Shown one piece after another: positions 55,216 to 64,000 of a stretch of 64,000 bases of DNA. The DNA comes from Morinoia aosen (Eukaryota > Arthropoda > Malacostraca > Amphipoda > Talitridae). How positions within the stretch are numbered: the first letter of the stretch is position 1; each line of letters starts with the position of its first letter. Both the position numbers and the translations under genes were made by a program. The notes below the pieces were generated by a model. The model worked only from the letters and a program-made list of their open reading frames with translations. It ran no database searches and had not been told where the DNA came from. The DNA lies in NCBI GenBank assembly GCA_030386875.1, contig CM059575.1, forward strand, positions 51,490,859 to 51,554,858, written 5' to 3'.

Positions 55216-56740
55216 TTACAAATTACCGAATACATTTATTTCCTTCACATATTCAAGCACTTTGTGGATAGGTCCTCCATCCGATAGCACAATCGCCACA
55301 CTCATTCTTCCTCCAGCCACTGGTCGAAGTAATCTGTCTCTGGCCTGTTGTAGTGAAGTACACTCTTCCAACATGTGCTTCACCGTCAGGACTGCATCGT
55401 TACACCACCCGCATATAGGTCTCTGCCCAAGAGTTTCTGGTTCGAAGAGATAGCTGTGGGTCAACGCTGTGTGGTTTAGTCGGAGCCTATTGATGACGAC
55501 TTCCTCCTGGCGGGTCAACTTGAAGATACACTTCTTCCATTTTCCAGGGCAAGTTTTGACAGCTCTGAGGCCTCTCTCAGCTTCACGCCATTCCCTGTTC
55601 CACATTTCATATGTTCTCTTTCTTATTAGCGGGAACCAATCTTTGTAAGGGGTCAATATAAATTCTGCGGGTCTCTGCGCTGCTGCTCTTGCAGCCTCGT
55701 CTGCACGCTCATTCTCCGCGACACCCACGTGCGCCGGGACCCAACTGATGGTAATGTTTTTGCCATCTTCTATGAGTTGATGCATTTCTAATAAGATCTT
55801 TTTTAGCAGTTCGTTATCTCCGGTATAGTTGTCAATTGCTTGTACCGAGCTCATTGAGTCACTGCAGATGACATAGTTAAGAGACGAAGTTTCCTTAATG
55901 ATGTTTAGAGCGAGCTTGATTGCGTGGAGTTCAGCTGTAAATATGCTTGCTACGAGCGGTAGTGAGGCCTTCCTGACGATGTTCCCCATCACAGCCGCCG
56001 CTCAAACTCCGGTTGGCGACTTGGATCCATCGGTGTCAATTACTTTGCTGCTGTGGTATTTACTCATAATATCGTTATGCATATGTCTTAGGATAGATGG
56101 GATAATTTCCGCCTTTCTTAAATCTGTCATTTGCTGCTCAAACTTGGGTCTGCGGAGAGTCCATGTATATGATGCAGGGGTGAAGTACGGATGGACTGGC
56201 TGGGTCGGAATGTTGTACTCCGTGATGGTCCGGCGCAGTCTTTGGATTACTGGTGCTGAGCATTTCCGGCTAGTAAAAAACAGTTCTAGGTTTGAGTTGC
56301 AGATTGAGCTGTATGCTGAGTTGATGTAGTGACATTTGAGTTTGAAATAATATCTTAGCAGCAGGTCTTTTCTTCTGAGTTCCAGTCTCGGTTCGTTACA
56401 TATTACCTGTAAGTCTGTTACTGGCGTCATCTTGAATGCTCCAGTGCTAATACGCATTGCTTCGTTCGCCACTACGTCCAGTTCCTTTAGCGCAGTTGCG
56501 CTCGCCGAGCCATAGACCACACAGCCATAGTCAATTTTGGAGCGGATCAGGGAACGGTACAGTCTCATTAGAATTTCTTGATCCGCACCCCAAGCAAAGG
56601 AAGACACGGATTTCAGTAAATTAAGGTCTTTGCTGCATTTAGCTTTTACACTTCTGATGTGGGTAATCCAGTTTAGCTTCTTATCCCAATGAAGGCCGAG
56701 GAATTTTGTGCTGTCTACTGGGAATACTTTGTTCGTCCAT
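55216..56740 (-). pseudogene. ORF2 C-terminal part: RT thumb, RNase H and zinc motif (frameshifted from EN-RT)
   Basis: This part continues ORF2 in another frame after a one-base slip near 56735. It starts around DSTKFLGLHWDKKLNW, runs through WGADQEILMRLYRSLIRSK and IDYGCVVYGSA, and reaches RNase H. The RNase H catalytic residues are present in order: Asp in DTDGS (about 56041), Glu in FTAELHAIKLALN, Asp in ICSDSMSSVQAI, and Asp in NERADEAARAA. A TGA interrupts the domain at 56002-56004, where the neighbouring residues suggest a former Gly codon; the same frame then continues to 55216. Near the end, CGWC then HMLEEC forms a CCHC-like zinc motif typical of I-group ORF2 tails. RNase H would remove template RNA during second-strand synthesis. 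Confidence 0.8.
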
Positions 56741-58930
56741 CCGTAATGTTGGAATTACCATTGGTTCATTCCCTCTATAGAATTGCATTGCAACAGTTTT
56801 CGTGGGTGAAAATCGGAATCCGTTATGTTTTGCCCACTGGTTGACTCGATCTATTGTCGACTGTATTGTTGTTTGAACTTCGTAGCTATTGTGACCAGCA
56901 AAAGCGATAAGAAGGTCGTCTACGAATAAGGAGCTGAAAACTTCACGAGGGATTTCCTTTGCTAATGAGTTAATTTTGATGGCAAACAGAGTGACACTAA
57001 GTGTGCTTCCCTGCGGTGTTCCAGTGGCCAGTTCTGTTAAGGGGGACAATTCGCCAGACACTCTCACTCGAAATGTTCGACCCCTGAGGAACTCCTTCAC
57101 AAACCTTGGTAATCTTCCTCGCATTCCTGCCGCTGCTAGGTCTCGTAATATCCCGTACCGCCAGGTCGTGTCATAGGCCTTTTCTAAATCAAAAAATACA
57201 GCGTGGACCACTTTATTTTCCGCGAACGATCTTCTCACATAGGTGTCGAACCTCACGAGATGGTCTACAGTTGCTCGATTCTTCCTGAAACCGCACTGGA
57301 TGTTAGTAAATATTTTGTTGTTTTCGAGGTATTCCATCAGTCTGCTGTTGATCATTTTTTCGTAGGTCTTGCATAGACAGCTCGTCAATGATATGGGCCT
57401 GTAGTTTTTCGGATTGCTGTGATCTTTACCAGGTTTAGGGATAGGTACAATTATGGCTTCTTTCCAACGTGGGTGCACATATTCTTTAACCCATAACTTA
57501 TTGTACACGTTCAGCAGGTATTGGTGAGCATTGTCCGGCATGTTTTTGATCATCAGGTTGCTGATATCATCTGCTCCTGGTGTTGTAATTCTATTACTTT
57601 TGATGGCGGATGTAAGTTTCTGCATTGTGAAAAGTCTGTTATAGGGTTCCTCATTGCTGCTCATGAAGTTGATGGGAGTTTGTTCTGCGAGTTGCTTGTA
57701 TCGTACAAATTGTTCTGAATAGTTCACGTTGCTGGATATGATTTCGAAGGTCTCTGCGAGCTTCTGTGCTATTTCCTTCGTGGTCGAATAATGATTTTCT
57801 CCTTCACTTAGCATTTTTATTTTCCTCTTGGCCCTTCCTCGAATTGTATTTATTGTTTCCCAAATATAACTACTGGGTGTGGTGGATTTCAGAGTTGATA
57901 CGAACTCTCTCCAGGTGTTCTGCTTAGCTTCCTTGAATGTCCTCGTTGCTATTGCTCTTGCCCTCTTCCACCGTATTTTGTCCTCCATTTCCCCAGTCCT
58001 CTTGTATACCCTGTAGCACTTCTCCCTCTCTCGCCAAGCTACTTTACAGTCCGCTGTCCACCATGGTTTTGCGTAGTGCCGTCTTCTCTTGTACTTAGGC
58101 GCCCAACTCTCAGCTGCACTATTGAATCTTTGATAGAGTTCATCGATTGCAGCCTCTGGGTCCTCTGGTATTTCCACCTGGTGTACATTTTTCCATATGG
58201 TGTCTTCTCGGTACTGCTTCCAGTTACCTTTCTTGAAATTCCATGCTTCGGTCTCTAGTCGTCCATCTGCTTGCAGAACTGTACAGGTGAGCATTATAGG
58301 GAAGTGATCACTACTCAGGACCGAGGGTAGAACATTGAACTTTAGATCCGGTGTTATGTCTGAGGATGCGAGTGTGAGGTCTATTATAGTTCCTGATATA
58401 TGAGTGGATGAATCATCATTAATGATGTTGAGGTTTTCCACTGCCAGCATGTTCCGCATCATTCGTCCTCTCCCATCTGTTCTCTTATTCCCCCAGTCAC
58501 TATGGTGAGCGTTAAAATCACCCATTATAACAACAGGTTTGGGCAATTCCCTCAAGGTGGTGAATAATTCTTCGATATTTACTTGCTCTTTGGGTGGTAA
58601 GTATATTGATGCAACAGTTATTATCTTGAATTTACTAAGGGATATTCTCGTAGCAACTATCTGAGCCGGTGATTGTGTGTTGATCTCTTGAGTGGGTATT
58701 GATGAATGTATGTATAGTGCCACTCCCCCATGAAACCTGTGGTTGTAGTGACCTTGCTTGCAGAAACTAACATATCCTGATACTGGGGACACAAAATTAT
58801 CACCGTAGAACGTTTCCTGTACAGCTATCACTGCTGGCTTGTAGGTGTCAACAAGGTTTATGAGGTCCTCCTTAGAAGACGCCATTCCTTGTAGATTCCA
58901 CTGTAGGAATGTAACCTCTTGCTCTGCCAT
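56681..58930 (-). CDS. ORF2 N-terminal part: AP-like endonuclease and reverse transcriptase
   Basis: The first ATG is at 58930-58928, overlapping the ORF1 extension stop as TGATG; an upstream in-frame GTG is not needed. Residues 1 to about 215 form an exonuclease-endonuclease-phosphatase domain with QWNLQG, AVQETF, MGDFNAHHSDWG and LSSDHFPI. All of the usual metal-binding and catalytic positions are present. A linker with KPWWTADCK and KRARAIATRTFKEAK follows. The RT (about 440-720) shows NYRPISLTS, GFRKNRATVDHL, FFDLEKAYDTTWR, TGTPQGSTLS and the active-site variant FVDD. The frame then slips near 56735 and ends at a false stop at 56681. The protein would nick target DNA and prime reverse transcription on the cut. 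Without the slip ORF2 would be about 1240 residues, normal for the group. Confidence 0.9.
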   Translation of the reverse strand: MAEQEVTFLQWNLQGMASSKEDLINLVDTYKPAVIAVQETFYGDNFVSPVSGYVSFCKQGHYNHRFHGGVALYIHSSIPTQEINTQSPAQIVATRISLSKFKIITVASIYLPPKEQVNIEELFTTLRELPKPVVIMGDFNAHHSDWGNKRTDGRGRMMRNMLAVENLNIINDDSSTHISGTIIDLTLASSDITPDLKFNVLPSVLSSDHFPIMLTCTVLQADGRLETEAWNFKKGNWKQYREDTIWKNVHQVEIPEDPEAAIDELYQRFNSAAESWAPKYKRRRHYAKPWWTADCKVAWREREKCYRVYKRTGEMEDKIRWKRARAIATRTFKEAKQNTWREFVSTLKSTTPSSYIWETINTIRGRAKRKIKMLSEGENHYSTTKEIAQKLAETFEIISSNVNYSEQFVRYKQLAEQTPINFMSSNEEPYNRLFTMQKLTSAIKSNRITTPGADDISNLMIKNMPDNAHQYLLNVYNKLWVKEYVHPRWKEAIIVPIPKPGKDHSNPKNYRPISLTSCLCKTYEKMINSRLMEYLENNKIFTNIQCGFRKNRATVDHLVRFDTYVRRSFAENKVVHAVFFDLEKAYDTTWRYGILRDLAAAGMRGRLPRFVKEFLRGRTFRVRVSGELSPLTELATGTPQGSTLSVTLFAIKINSLAKEIPREVFSSLFVDDLLIAFAGHNSYEVQTTIQSTIDRVNQWAKHNGFRFSPTKTVAMQFYRGNEPMVIPTLRMDEQSIPSRQHKIPRPSLG

Positions 58931-58932
58931 CA
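58928..58932 (-). promoter_or_regulatory. TGATG stop-start overlap between ORF1 and ORF2
   Basis: The TGA closing the ORF1 frame (58932-58930) shares its A with the ORF2 ATG (58930-58928). Overlapping stop-start pentamers are known from insect non-LTR elements, where ORF2 is made by termination and reinitiation. Here the true ORF1 stop only comes into view if the earlier TGA at 59113 is regarded as a mutation. Confidence 0.65.
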
Positions 58933-59112
58933 CCTCCACCTGCGCCTGATGTCCTCAGACCTCCTCCTCTCGTCTTTGCCTCTCGGAGATCTCTTCCTGA
59001 AGCTCTCCCTCGATGTTGCACGTGAGCGTTGTCTACGCATCTCTCCCACTTTCGGACGGTTAGCTTTTTTCAGTTCTTCTTCATATTTGTCTCTATCAAT
59101 TTCTTCAGCTTC

Positions 59113-61347
59113 TCATATTTCTTTTGTGTATTCATCATAAATTTTCGTGGTTTCTCTCCTTCTAGATTCCCTTTCTTTTGCAGGTGATATTGCACCGTGG
59201 TGCAGGCTTACAGTCGTTGTGAAAAGCCTTCCGGTCTTGGGGCTCTCACACACAACCTCTGTCATCCTCTCTATTTCATCTTCCTTCGCCGACATACTTC
59301 TATTCCTGGACTTATTTCTTGTTTCGACTCCTTCAACCTTTTTCTTGCTTTGTTGTGGCTCTGGTGTTGATTCTCGGTCATCTGATCGGTTTCTCTTTTT
59401 ATTGTTTGTAATATCTTCTTTTATGGGGTTAGTGTGTGTCTTAATTGCCTTAGTGAAATTCATAGAGAAGTTCGGGTTGCGGCGGTTGAACATCAATCTG
59501 GCTTGCCCTTTTGAAACTCTTTCTTTACTCTGAATGGCCAAGATTTCCTCCTCCAGCACTCTCTGTCTGCAATTTCTTGATCCCGTTGGATGCTCCTCAC
59601 TGCAGTGGTAGCACTTGGTCTCGCTGGAAGTGCATTCGTCAATTAGATGCCCAGTCGAGCTGCACCTCGAGCACACTTGTTCTCCCTGGCAGTGTTTAAT
59701 GCCGTGGCCATATTCTTGGCATTTTTTGCAGAGCATAGGTCTGGGCTTAATTTCGTATACCTTGGTTTTAGCCTGCTCTCCAGGGACATCAATGTATTCG
59801 GGTAGCACGGGCTGCCTGAAAGACAACAGAATAGGCAGTGCCAGGTGACTTCTCGGTTTAATCCAGGTTGCTCGAACCGCATCTTGAGCTCCACACATTT
59901 CCAGTAATCCTTGCTTGAATTTTTCAAAGTCACTCAGATCGTATTCATATACATAGATAAGGCCTTTCTGCATAGCAAAATTGAGGTTCTCTTCGACAGT
60001 GATGGGCATTTGGTTTAGTTGCTGCATTTGTTTCATTTTCTGGCTCTGAGCTGCGTCACTCACTTCCACTGTAAACACTGTCTTGCTCCGCGATCTTATG
60101 GCTTTGGGTTTACTGCCGAGGTGGTCGGTGATACACTTCTCGAGTACCCATGGAGATATCTTTCGTCTATTAGCTTCATTCATCCTGCAATCAAAATGAG
60201 TGATGTACTTGCTAGATGGTGGGGCTCGTACAGTTTCATCCACTCCTTCCCTTATCTGTTTAGCTCTTCTTATGGTCACTTTTTCTCTCTCCACTATTTG
60301 CAACAAGCATCTTTCTTCTATTTCTCCGTCACACTGGATGCTGCCTGCTGCGTGTGGACCTCCGCAGTGGGCACACTTCGTCTCGTCAGACGTGCAGTTC
60401 AGAGCGGAGTGGCCGACCTCAGCACACTTTCTGCACACTGCAGAGGTATTTCGGCATCGCTTAGTGGTGTGACCATACATCTGACAATTGAAACACATCA
60501 TTGGTTTGTTGTTAAACGGATATACTTTGGTGTCTTGCCTTTCACCTGGAATATAGATGCTGTATGGTACGGTTTGTTGCTTGAACGTTATAAGAAAGGC
60601 TTGTGTTTCGGGATATCTTGGTTTAATGAAACTAGCTCTTGTAACTTCCTGCACATTGTACTGCTCCTGAAGGCCGGTTTTAAATTCGTTCATGTCGGTG
60701 ATGTCAAAGTCATTGATGTATATCAAGCCAGTCGAGTAATTGAACCTGCTGTATTCTGCAGTCTGACAGGGTACATTTTCCACGTGCGTCAGGCTGACAA
60801 TCTTCTTCGCTTGCTGCGCACTTCGCACTTCGACCATCATCATTTCAGGGCCCATGCTAAACAGCCTCTTGGGTTTTGTGCCAGTTACAGCCGCGATTTG
60901 TTGGAGAACTCCAAACGGGTTAGTTTTCCTTTTTCCTCCATGTTCAAAGGTGATGGAAAAGTACCTGGGAAAGAACTCTTCGTCAGGTAGCACCAGAGGA
61001 ACGTATTTTATTTTCTCCTTTTTTTGCAGTTTTCCACACTTACGTGCTGGCTGTTCCTGCCCTGAAGATGAACCACTTCGGGCCGAAATCACCGCTCTCT
61101 CAATTTCTGTTAGATGCTTCACAATCTGGTCCACTTCATTGGTGCTCATATTTCTGCAACTCTCATCACTCACATCACCCGCAATTGTTGCGATGGCTTC
61201 TTCAATTCTTCTCTTGATATTTCCGACGTTGTCACGTTGGTCCACCTTCGAGGCGAGGGGGTCATCTCCAGCGTCACCTCGCTGCCGCTGCGGATCCTCC
61301 ATTTCTTCCATGCTCGAAACTTGGTCACACGCATTCGAACGATTCAT
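59113..61347 (-). CDS. ORF1: RNA-binding protein with duplicated RRM-like plus triple zinc-knuckle modules
   Basis: The ATG at 61347 starts MNRSNACDQVSSMEE; 744 residues precede the TGA at 59113. An acidic N-terminus is followed by module 1 (about 125-355): an RRM-like fold, then CFNCQMYGHTTKRC, CRKCAEVGHSALNC and CAHCGGPHAAGSIQC. Module 2 (about 375-615) has the same order: GLIYVYEYDLSDFEKFKQGL against GLIYINDFDITDMNEFKTGL in module 1, then CKKCQEYGHGIKHC, CSRCSSTGHLIDEC and CYHCSEEHPTGSRNC. Most I-group ORF1 proteins have one such set. After the TGA the frame stays open for another 60 codons (EAEEIDRDKYEEELKKAN and an Arg-rich tail) to the TGATG at 58932. The stop is therefore probably a CGA-to-TGA change, and the original protein was about 805 residues. 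It should coat element RNA. Confidence 0.85.
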   Translation of the reverse strand: MNRSNACDQVSSMEEMEDPQRQRGDAGDDPLASKVDQRDNVGNIKRRIEEAIATIAGDVSDESCRNMSTNEVDQIVKHLTEIERAVISARSGSSSGQEQPARKCGKLQKKEKIKYVPLVLPDEEFFPRYFSITFEHGGKRKTNPFGVLQQIAAVTGTKPKRLFSMGPEMMMVEVRSAQQAKKIVSLTHVENVPCQTAEYSRFNYSTGLIYINDFDITDMNEFKTGLQEQYNVQEVTRASFIKPRYPETQAFLITFKQQTVPYSIYIPGERQDTKVYPFNNKPMMCFNCQMYGHTTKRCRNTSAVCRKCAEVGHSALNCTSDETKCAHCGGPHAAGSIQCDGEIEERCLLQIVEREKVTIRRAKQIREGVDETVRAPPSSKYITHFDCRMNEANRRKISPWVLEKCITDHLGSKPKAIRSRSKTVFTVEVSDAAQSQKMKQMQQLNQMPITVEENLNFAMQKGLIYVYEYDLSDFEKFKQGLLEMCGAQDAVRATWIKPRSHLALPILLSFRQPVLPEYIDVPGEQAKTKVYEIKPRPMLCKKCQEYGHGIKHCQGEQVCSRCSSTGHLIDECTSSETKCYHCSEEHPTGSRNCRQRVLEEEILAIQSKERVSKGQARLMFNRRNPNFSMNFTKAIKTHTNPIKEDITNNKKRNRSDDRESTPEPQQSKKKVEGVETRNKSRNRSMSAKEDEIERMTEVVCESPKTGRLFTTTVSLHHGAISPAKERESRRRETTKIYDEYTKEI

Positions 61348-61620
61348 TATTTCAGGAGTGGGTCCCCTTGATAAATCAAGGGGGCCTCGCTTGGACACGT
61401 CTATTCTACACTCAATATTTCAAAGAAATTTTATTACACAAAACAAAAGAGAAAAGACCCAGATGTTGGTGGGCGCCCCCCACGTTGGTTCTACCCACAG
61501 ATAACAATACAATAATTAATCTTATAAACACCTTGTTATCAATTTACATATAAACTATGTAATGAGTTACAAGACTCCAAATGGGTATATTAACGGTACC
61601 ACCACGGGAAGGTGTGGGTA
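61348..61620 (-). other. 5' leader of the I-like element and flank
   Basis: This segment contains the presumed 5' UTR with an internal promoter. A GC-rich patch, minus strand ACGTGGGGGGCGCCCACC (about 61468-61486), stands out. I cannot place the exact 5' end or a target-site duplication. Confidence 0.4.
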
Positions 61621-62930: not shown

Positions 62931-63030
62931 AAGGGCTTTGCTAGAAATTTCCTTCATGTAAACCTATTCTCAACCTCTGTTGTAATCATTATCCTTTCTA
63001 ATGATAGAACAATTTCTCCAGTAGCTAACA

Positions 63031-64000
63031 GCGGGGCACGGCGCCAAGCAGCGTGGCACGGCGCCAAGCAGCGTGGCGCGGCGCCAAGCAGCGTGGCGCG
63101 GCGCCAAGCAGCGCGGCGCGGCGCCAAGCAGCGCGGCGCGGCGCCAAGCAGCGCGGCGCGGCGCCAAGCAGCGCGGCGCGGCGCCAAGCAGCGCGGCGCG
63201 GCGCCAAGCAGCGCGGCGCGGCGCCAAGCAGCGCGGCGCGGCGCCAAGCAGCGCGGCGCGGCGCCAAGCAGCGCGGCGCGGCGCCAAGCAGCGCGGCGCG
63301 GCGCCAAGCAGCGCGGCGCGGCGCCAAGCAGCGAGGCGCGGCGCCAAGCAGCGAGGCGCGGCGCCAAACAGCGAGGCGCGGCGCCAAACAGCGCGGCGCG
63401 GCGCCAAACAGCGCGGCACGGCGCCAAACAGCGCGGCACGGCGCCAAACAGCGCGGCACGGCGCCAAACAGCGCGGCACGGCGCCAAACAGCGCGGCACG
63501 GCGCCAAACAGCGCGGCACGGCGCCAAACAGCGCGGCACGGCGCCAAACAGCGCGGCACGGCGCCAAACAGCGCGGCACGGCGCCAAACAGCGCGGCACG
63601 GCGCCAAACAGCGCGGCACGGCGCCAAACAGCGCGGCACGGCGCCAAACAGCGCGGCACGGCGCCAAACAGCGCGGCACGGCGCCAAACAGCGCGGCACG
63701 GCGCCAAACAGCGCGGCACGGCGCCAAACAGCGCGGCACGGCGCCAAACAGCGCGGCACGGCGCCAAACAGCGCGGCACGGCGCAAACAGCGTGGCACGG
63801 CGCCAAACAGCGCGGCACGGCGCCAAACAGCGCGGCACGGCGCCAAACAGCGTGGCACGGCGCCAAACAGCGTGGCACGGCGCCAAACAGCGCGGCACGG
63901 CGCCAAACAGCGCGGCACGGCGCCAAACAGCGCGGCACGGCGCCAAACAGCGTGGCACGGCGCCAAACAGCGCGGCACGGCGCCAAACAGCGCGGCACGG
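63031..64000. repeat. 20-bp GC-rich minisatellite, about 48 units, running off the right edge
   Basis: The units are GCGCCAAGCAGCGCGGCGCG on the left and GCGCCAAACAGCGCGGCACG on the right. The change from one form to the other is stepwise: AAGCA-GCGCG, then AAGCA with GCGAG, then AAACA with GCGAG and GCGCG, then AAACA with GCACG. One unit at 63781-63799 has lost a base. The plus strand of the unit contains no T apart from a few GTGG variants and the minus strand has no stop triplet, so all frames stay open. The ~320-340-residue minus frames with period PRCLAPCRAVWRRAALFGAV are therefore not evidence of a gene. Confidence 0.95.

Follow-up and report, generated by a model that had tools for sequence, protein, structure and literature searches.

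The window analysed here is a 64,000-nucleotide stretch of the Morinoia aosen genome (assembly GCA_030386875.1, contig CM059575.1, forward-strand positions 51,490,859 to 51,554,858). On its minus strand it carries a long interspersed nuclear element (LINE) whose first open reading frame (ORF1) holds two complete copies of one nucleic-acid-binding unit, called module 1 and module 2 below. The ORF1 frame (59113..61398, minus strand) encodes 761 aa when counted from its first GTG; the first ATG lies at 61347. The frame ends prematurely at a TGA, 61 codons ahead of the stop seen in 28 of the 29 further family copies that were fetched. It is followed by ORF2, in which a Pfam search detected endonuclease, reverse transcriptase and RNase H domains. 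Two interruptions break ORF2 into three minus-strand frames: a piece with endonuclease and reverse transcriptase (56681..58939; PF03372, PF14529 and PF00078), a piece whose frame is broken at both sides and which lacks a Pfam match (56002..56607), and a piece with RNase H (55216..55992; PF00075, 1.3e-11). Because of the early ORF1 stop and the division of ORF2 over three frames, the window copy is regarded as damaged. Long open ORF2 frames with RNase H inside are found at other two-module loci, e.g., 1244 aa at C3:20806401 and 1261 aa at C14:46739236 (positions are written as contig and coordinate; the genome searched comprises 2.0 Gb in 29 contigs). The window element has an endonuclease of the apurinic type together with the reverse transcriptase, and RNase H downstream of the latter, which is the layout of I-like elements; by this layout it is classed as a copy of an I-like LINE.

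Each half of ORF1 contains two domains resembling the RNA recognition motif (RRM), three CCHC zinc knuckles and a helical tail, i.e., a whole Type IB ORF1 unit. Module 1 (aa 138-380; 60259..60987, on the minus strand like all ORF1 features) and module 2 (aa 393-635; 59494..60222) are collinear, and AlphaFold2 predicts one shared layout for both. The first domain, RRMa, is located at aa 145-215 (60754..60966) in module 1 and at aa 401-470 (59989..60198) in module 2. In both halves it is predicted to form the b-a-b-b-a-b sandwich (b, strand; a, helix) of an RRM fold, and the predicted structures match solved RRM structures. The second domain, RRMb, is noncanonical and RRM-like (aa 222-294, 60517..60735, holding GLIYINDFD in module 1; aa 476-535, 59794..59973, holding GLIYVYEYD in module 2). 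The two RRMb domains are homologous, and in the AlphaFold2 models of the whole halves both appear as b-a-b-b with no clear second helix. The RRM assignment rests on structure prediction; the Pfam search of ORF1 returned no RRM match. An RLL match in the same search (E 0.066, below the cut-off) was dismissed as chance. A sequence search of solved structures mostly returned retroviral-type zinc knuckles at module 1 (best E 0.00018), plus weak others.

A pattern scan finds six zinc knuckles, with starts at aa 302, 322, 342, 557, 576 and 596. The first three (aa 302-356; 60331..60495) were recognised by the pattern and reach 18.9 bits against zf-CCHC, below the Pfam cut-off of 20.8, while the second three (aa 557-610; 59569..59730) were found by both Pfam and the pattern. 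All zinc ligands are retained in both modules of the window copy, and the third knuckle of both sets is C-x2-C-x3-H-x6-C. The helical tails were delimited by judgement in the AlphaFold2 models, at aa 357-383 (60250..60330) in module 1, where the tail runs into module 2, and at aa 611-640 (59479..59568) in module 2. By definition, a Type I ORF1 has one or more RRMs directly ahead of its CCHC knuckles (as cited in PMC4120745). ORF1 of the window shows this arrangement, with the RRM identified by structure prediction, but it has two full sets in one frame rather than a single one, and it is therefore a variant of the Type I ORF1 and not a plain member.

The two halves also align end to end as protein. 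Residues 138-380 and 393-634 share 84 of 242 positions with one gap, and the Smith-Waterman score of half 1 against half 2 is 416. With the knuckles removed, the match still scores 249, whereas 5000 shuffles average 31 and never exceed 64. The stretch upstream of GLIY (score 82, shuffle maximum 57) and the stretch from GLIY to the knuckles (171, shuffle maximum 48) each exceed all of their 5000 shuffles. Neither the N-terminal nor the C-terminal part of ORF1 matched module 1 to a similar degree (scores 24 and 32). At the DNA level, the modules are 46% identical over 180 ungapped codons and 31% identical at third positions; the silent sites therefore look saturated and the duplication is old. 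The junction between tail 1 and the first strand of module 2 is about 15 residues long and shows no trace of the N- or C-terminal ORF1 region. The initial annotation had described the frame as a doubled module of an RRM and three knuckles, and the self-alignment bears this out far above the shuffles. Likewise, its division of the knuckles into two sets of three with the same last variant agrees with the pattern scan. It had also placed one RRM-like segment before each set; related segments are present, but there are two per half, and the GLIY segments it quoted are the second and less canonical of these. Structure prediction of both modules had been named beforehand as a possible refutation, which the RRM predicted in each half did not deliver.

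The two-module layout is a family trait and not a one-off. Searching the same genome with ORF1 gave at least 62 matches from 59 scored of 8532 candidates, and among these at least 34 span aa 1-761 at 97-100% identity. The 17 matches of 64-66% identity all begin at aa 12-34 and end at aa 759-760, and thus cover both modules. Ten divergent loci picked for long frames (L061-L070) encode ORF1s that are 63-97% identical, and all ten carry both modules. Together with the window they form about five groups that are 63-76% alike, L061 and L068 within one group being 78% identical. Six knuckle pattern matches are found in seven of the ten. The window family was represented by its 30 best matches, the window's own copy included, a choice that biases the following figures upward: six knuckles occur in 30/30, no stop interrupts the 761 codons in 26/30, and the copies are 98.9-100% identical to one another in DNA, two of them (L007 and L008) being the same throughout in at least one case. 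Such near-identical copies indicate that the window family has recently been mobile.

Within the window and L061-L070, identity is high between corresponding modules (72-99% for module 1 and 71-96% for module 2, 55 pairs each), whereas module 1 and module 2 are 29-36% identical to each other (121 pairs). The ratio of nonsynonymous to synonymous substitution rates (dN/dS) was estimated for the modules in 66 region-by-pair values. Synonymous divergence (dS) was saturated in 26 of these, and 39 of the 40 others gave a ratio of at most 0.27; the single high value was 0.62, at a dS of 0.08. By these comparisons, both modules are under purifying selection even though they have diverged.

A separate group of matches lies at C21:25218627-28333657, where thirteen same-strand matches to the module 2 knuckles (67-69% identity) occur within about 3.1 Mb. 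Five of the thirteen have a same-sized RNase H frame of 282 aa a few kb away. The cluster points to segmental or tandem duplication of a single old copy, and not to retrotransposition, as the way in which it spread.

Single-module I-like ORF1s from the same genome were used for comparison. An RNase H search of the genome scored 150 loci of 5206 candidates, and four whole ORF1 frames (L071-L074) were fetched via their downstream RNase H; all four have one module. Three more (L075-L077) are short pieces around matches of a search with the L073 module. That search gave 143 matches, L073 included, and only one same-strand pair within 3 kb was seen by eye among them, on C13; L073-type ORF1s thus look single-module in sequence. 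The one other reverse transcriptase of this genome that was compared, L078, belongs to one of these single-module elements and is 37% identical (137/370) to that of the window. Four RNase_H matches on C27 (positions 56741882, 65943104, 67858280 and 71612683) reached 130-174 bits, the next best of the 150 scored being 74 bits; they could be bacterial sequence in the contig or a host RNase H1 family.

By alignment, the seven single-module ORF1s have a pair of RRM-like domains, and like the window modules they also carry three knuckles and a helical tail. All seven end their knuckles in C-x2-C-x3-H-x6-C, and this variant was therefore rejected as a mark of the duplication. The second knuckle of L073 has x4-H-x3 spacing, was missed by the pattern and was recognised by eye. 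A helical motif of approximately E-E-x2-L-x-I-x3-E-+-V-x4-A follows the knuckles of both modules and recurs in variant form in 7/7 singles; judging from sequence, it seems to be part of the Type I unit, and we know of no name for it. The singles differ from the window ORF1 in having one module, in a mean identity of 17-25% for either module 1 or module 2 against each of them, and in lacking a 2-residue stretch that precedes 'KVY' in the MAFFT alignment.

An unrooted tree was built from the seven singles and 20 modules of ten two-module loci (L064 left out), 27 rows in all. In this tree, module 1 (support 96/95), module 2 (100/99) and the singles (100/99) each occupy one side of a branch. The same three groups were obtained in a 24-row tree with four singles (module 1 87/91, singles 99/98) and in all four rebuilds without long single rows. 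Mean identity between module 1 and module 2 is 32%, higher than that of either module to any single, and the 2-residue stretch is present in 20/20 modules and 0/7 singles, its polarity being inferred. These two features, together with the single-set Type I layout in print, favour a gain in the two-module lineage. Additionally, the junction without N- or C-terminal ORF1 remnants favours a duplication within the gene over a fusion of whole ORF1s. The initial annotation had proposed such an intragenic duplication, and the collinear halves, the identity values and the 2-residue stretch support it; the phylogeny it had called for separates the two modules and the singles, as described. Its further view that the doubling defines a lineage is supported within this genome for the sampled subfamilies. 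A tandem layout that is standard in the clade had been named as a second possible refutation; among the seven other I-like ORF1s sampled here it is not standard, all of them being single.

Our results thus point to a likely origin of this I-like ORF1 in an old in-frame tandem duplication of a complete unit of two RRM domains, three CCHC knuckles and a helical tail, with both modules kept and diverging since. A duplication within this lineage is the simplest reading of the comparisons, not a proof. The event would have preceded the split of the two-module subfamilies sampled in this genome, and both modules would have been retained under purifying selection while drifting apart. They are probably no longer interchangeable.

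Some observations weigh against this reading. The knuckle pattern is not intact in all divergent ORF1s, as L067 and L069 give five matches and L070 four. In L067 the open frame starts within the first RRM of module 1, and the last knuckle has a 2-residue insertion. L070 has lost two knuckle histidines, both in module 1, and L069 keeps the ligands and has one altered knuckle glycine. These three look like decaying copies. Long-branch warnings were raised for the 27-row tree, the 24-row tree and one of the four rebuilds, and support for the module 1 group drops to 84/82 in the worst rebuild, without L073 and L075-L077. Because the trees show three groups and have no root, the tree alone cannot tell a gain of a module here from a loss in the singles, and they fit equally well with a two-module ORF1 that is older than the single-module families. 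If two copies of one family had been fused and afterwards trimmed, the tree and the appearance would also be the same.

As to function, the ORF1 protein most likely coats the element RNA in a ribonucleoprotein, as other Type I ORF1 proteins do, and most likely chaperones this RNA during target-primed reverse transcription. In SART1, all three knuckles are involved in mRNA packaging (as cited in PMC4120745). Two linked modules would give a bivalent and longer grip on nucleic acid, i.e., higher avidity or the bridging of two strands. The initial annotation had expected a doubled RNA-binding capacity; a plain doubling may be too simple, because the modules have diverged to about one third identity. 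RNA binding, bivalency and any division of labour between the modules are putative.

Such a division of labour, in which one module has taken on a new job (target DNA, cDNA or a partner protein) and the other keeps coating RNA, is a tentative possibility. Of 247 columns compared (L067 module 1 left out), 31 are invariant within each module and different between them, versus 42 that are invariant and the same in both. The stem branch of module 2 is also longer than that of module 1 (1.30 versus 0.91 in the 27-module tree). However, which module would be the ancestral one shows no consistent sign, as the nearest module is module 1 for 4/7 singles and module 2 for 3/7, and both modules retain every zinc ligand in the window copy. 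The idea that module 2 is a faster-evolving derived copy, suggested when the first four singles were all nearer to module 1, was rejected on the same split. More doubtful is a neutral frozen accident, i.e., a duplication that brought no advantage and is retained solely because neither module is sufficient any longer on its own. Constructive neutral drift likewise predicts that duplicated modules diverge; by sequence this scenario is inseparable from a duplication kept for its function, as the conservation of both modules fits either.

It is unlikely that the doubled ORF1 arose by fusion, with one I-like element landing inside or next to another and their two ORF1s becoming joined and subsequently trimmed. 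LINE-into-LINE insertion has been proposed to join ORFs of different elements, in that case ORF1 and a foreign ORF2 (Metcalfe and Casane, PMC4120745). Moreover, C13:48406633-48408786 offers a natural example of ORF1s coming to lie side by side: a tandem, same-strand pair of ORF1 matches of single-module type that belong to different families (59% and 95% identity to L073). Against such a fusion stand the greater likeness of the two modules to each other than to any of the seven singles and the lack of terminal ORF1 sequence between them. Still less probable is a two-module ORF1 that already existed when the single-module families branched off, with these then losing one module. Compatible as it is with the unrooted trees, this requires either that the ancestor of the sampled singles lost a module or that such losses were repeated, and it sits poorly with the identity between the modules, which is above that of either to the singles. 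In addition, Table 1 of PMC4120745 gives no more than a single set (2 RRMs and 3 CCHCs) for each ORF1 among subgroups of 448 Jockey-superfamily elements, the I superfamily being outside that survey. Finally, a chance or convergent likeness of two unrelated knuckle-rich stretches is refuted, as widely as CCHC motifs recur, by the score of the knuckle-free part alone.

In the literature, Jockey-like ORF1s have one or two RRM domains followed by at least one knuckle (PMC3905857), which we interpret as a single set. The Type IB ORF1 of the Jockey lineage and its kin has the same order as each module, two RRMs and then three CCHC knuckles (Metcalfe and Casane, 2014; PMC4120745); the window ORF1 differs in having this set twice in one chain. 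Insect LINE ORF1 and ORF2 proteins with a captured viral helicase domain (PMC5563155) are likewise a domain-level elaboration that has been kept. However, their domain came from outside, whereas the window ORF1 has duplicated its own binding unit. The available text of PMC11203168 contains nothing on ORF1 domain duplication. A search of full-text literature by titles and abstract openings, with Repbase Reports and subscription papers outside its scope, found no description of a duplicated RRM-CCHC unit among the papers listed. Viral-contig scans with ORF1 and with the module alignment, and a genome-contig scan with the module alignment, found no relatives beyond this genome; these collections hold few eukaryotes and are uninformative on other arthropods. 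The ORF1 of the Drosophila I factor is the nucleocapsid-like protein of an I-group element with one set of three CCHC motifs.

Apart from the LINE, the window has short-unit satellite arrays at both ends (1-1878 and 63027-64000), built from a 9-bp G-rich unit (about 209 copies) and a 20-bp unit (about 49 copies). In the genome, the TTAGG repeat gave 6351 + 8246 exact overlapping 60-base matches compared to 0 for a reversed control, as would suit an arthropod. One exact TTAGG array, at C1:29645296, lies inside the 57 Mb contig C1 and is not terminal; it is an interstitial telomere repeat or an assembly join.

LINE ORF1 proteins vary by domain swapping. Collectively, the doubling of a complete LINE RNA-binding unit is real, old and conserved, and it represents a new variant of the Type I ORF1, its novelty being judged within this genome. 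A bolder and rather improbable extension is a hitherto undescribed clade of I-like LINEs defined by a doubled ORF1 with four RRM-like domains and six knuckles, in which one module has a different specificity for nucleic acid or partner. If so, the particle protein would grip two different partners at once, e.g., the RNA of its own element together with target DNA or with cDNA. The doubled ORF1 may also serve as a simple marker of a LINE lineage. A whole binding unit that has been duplicated and kept across subfamilies, including one family whose copies are near-identical and recent, amounts to a natural experiment. With it, one can study the number of RNA-binding units required by a LINE particle, and whether two modules can share out RNA coating and strand-transfer chaperoning between them.
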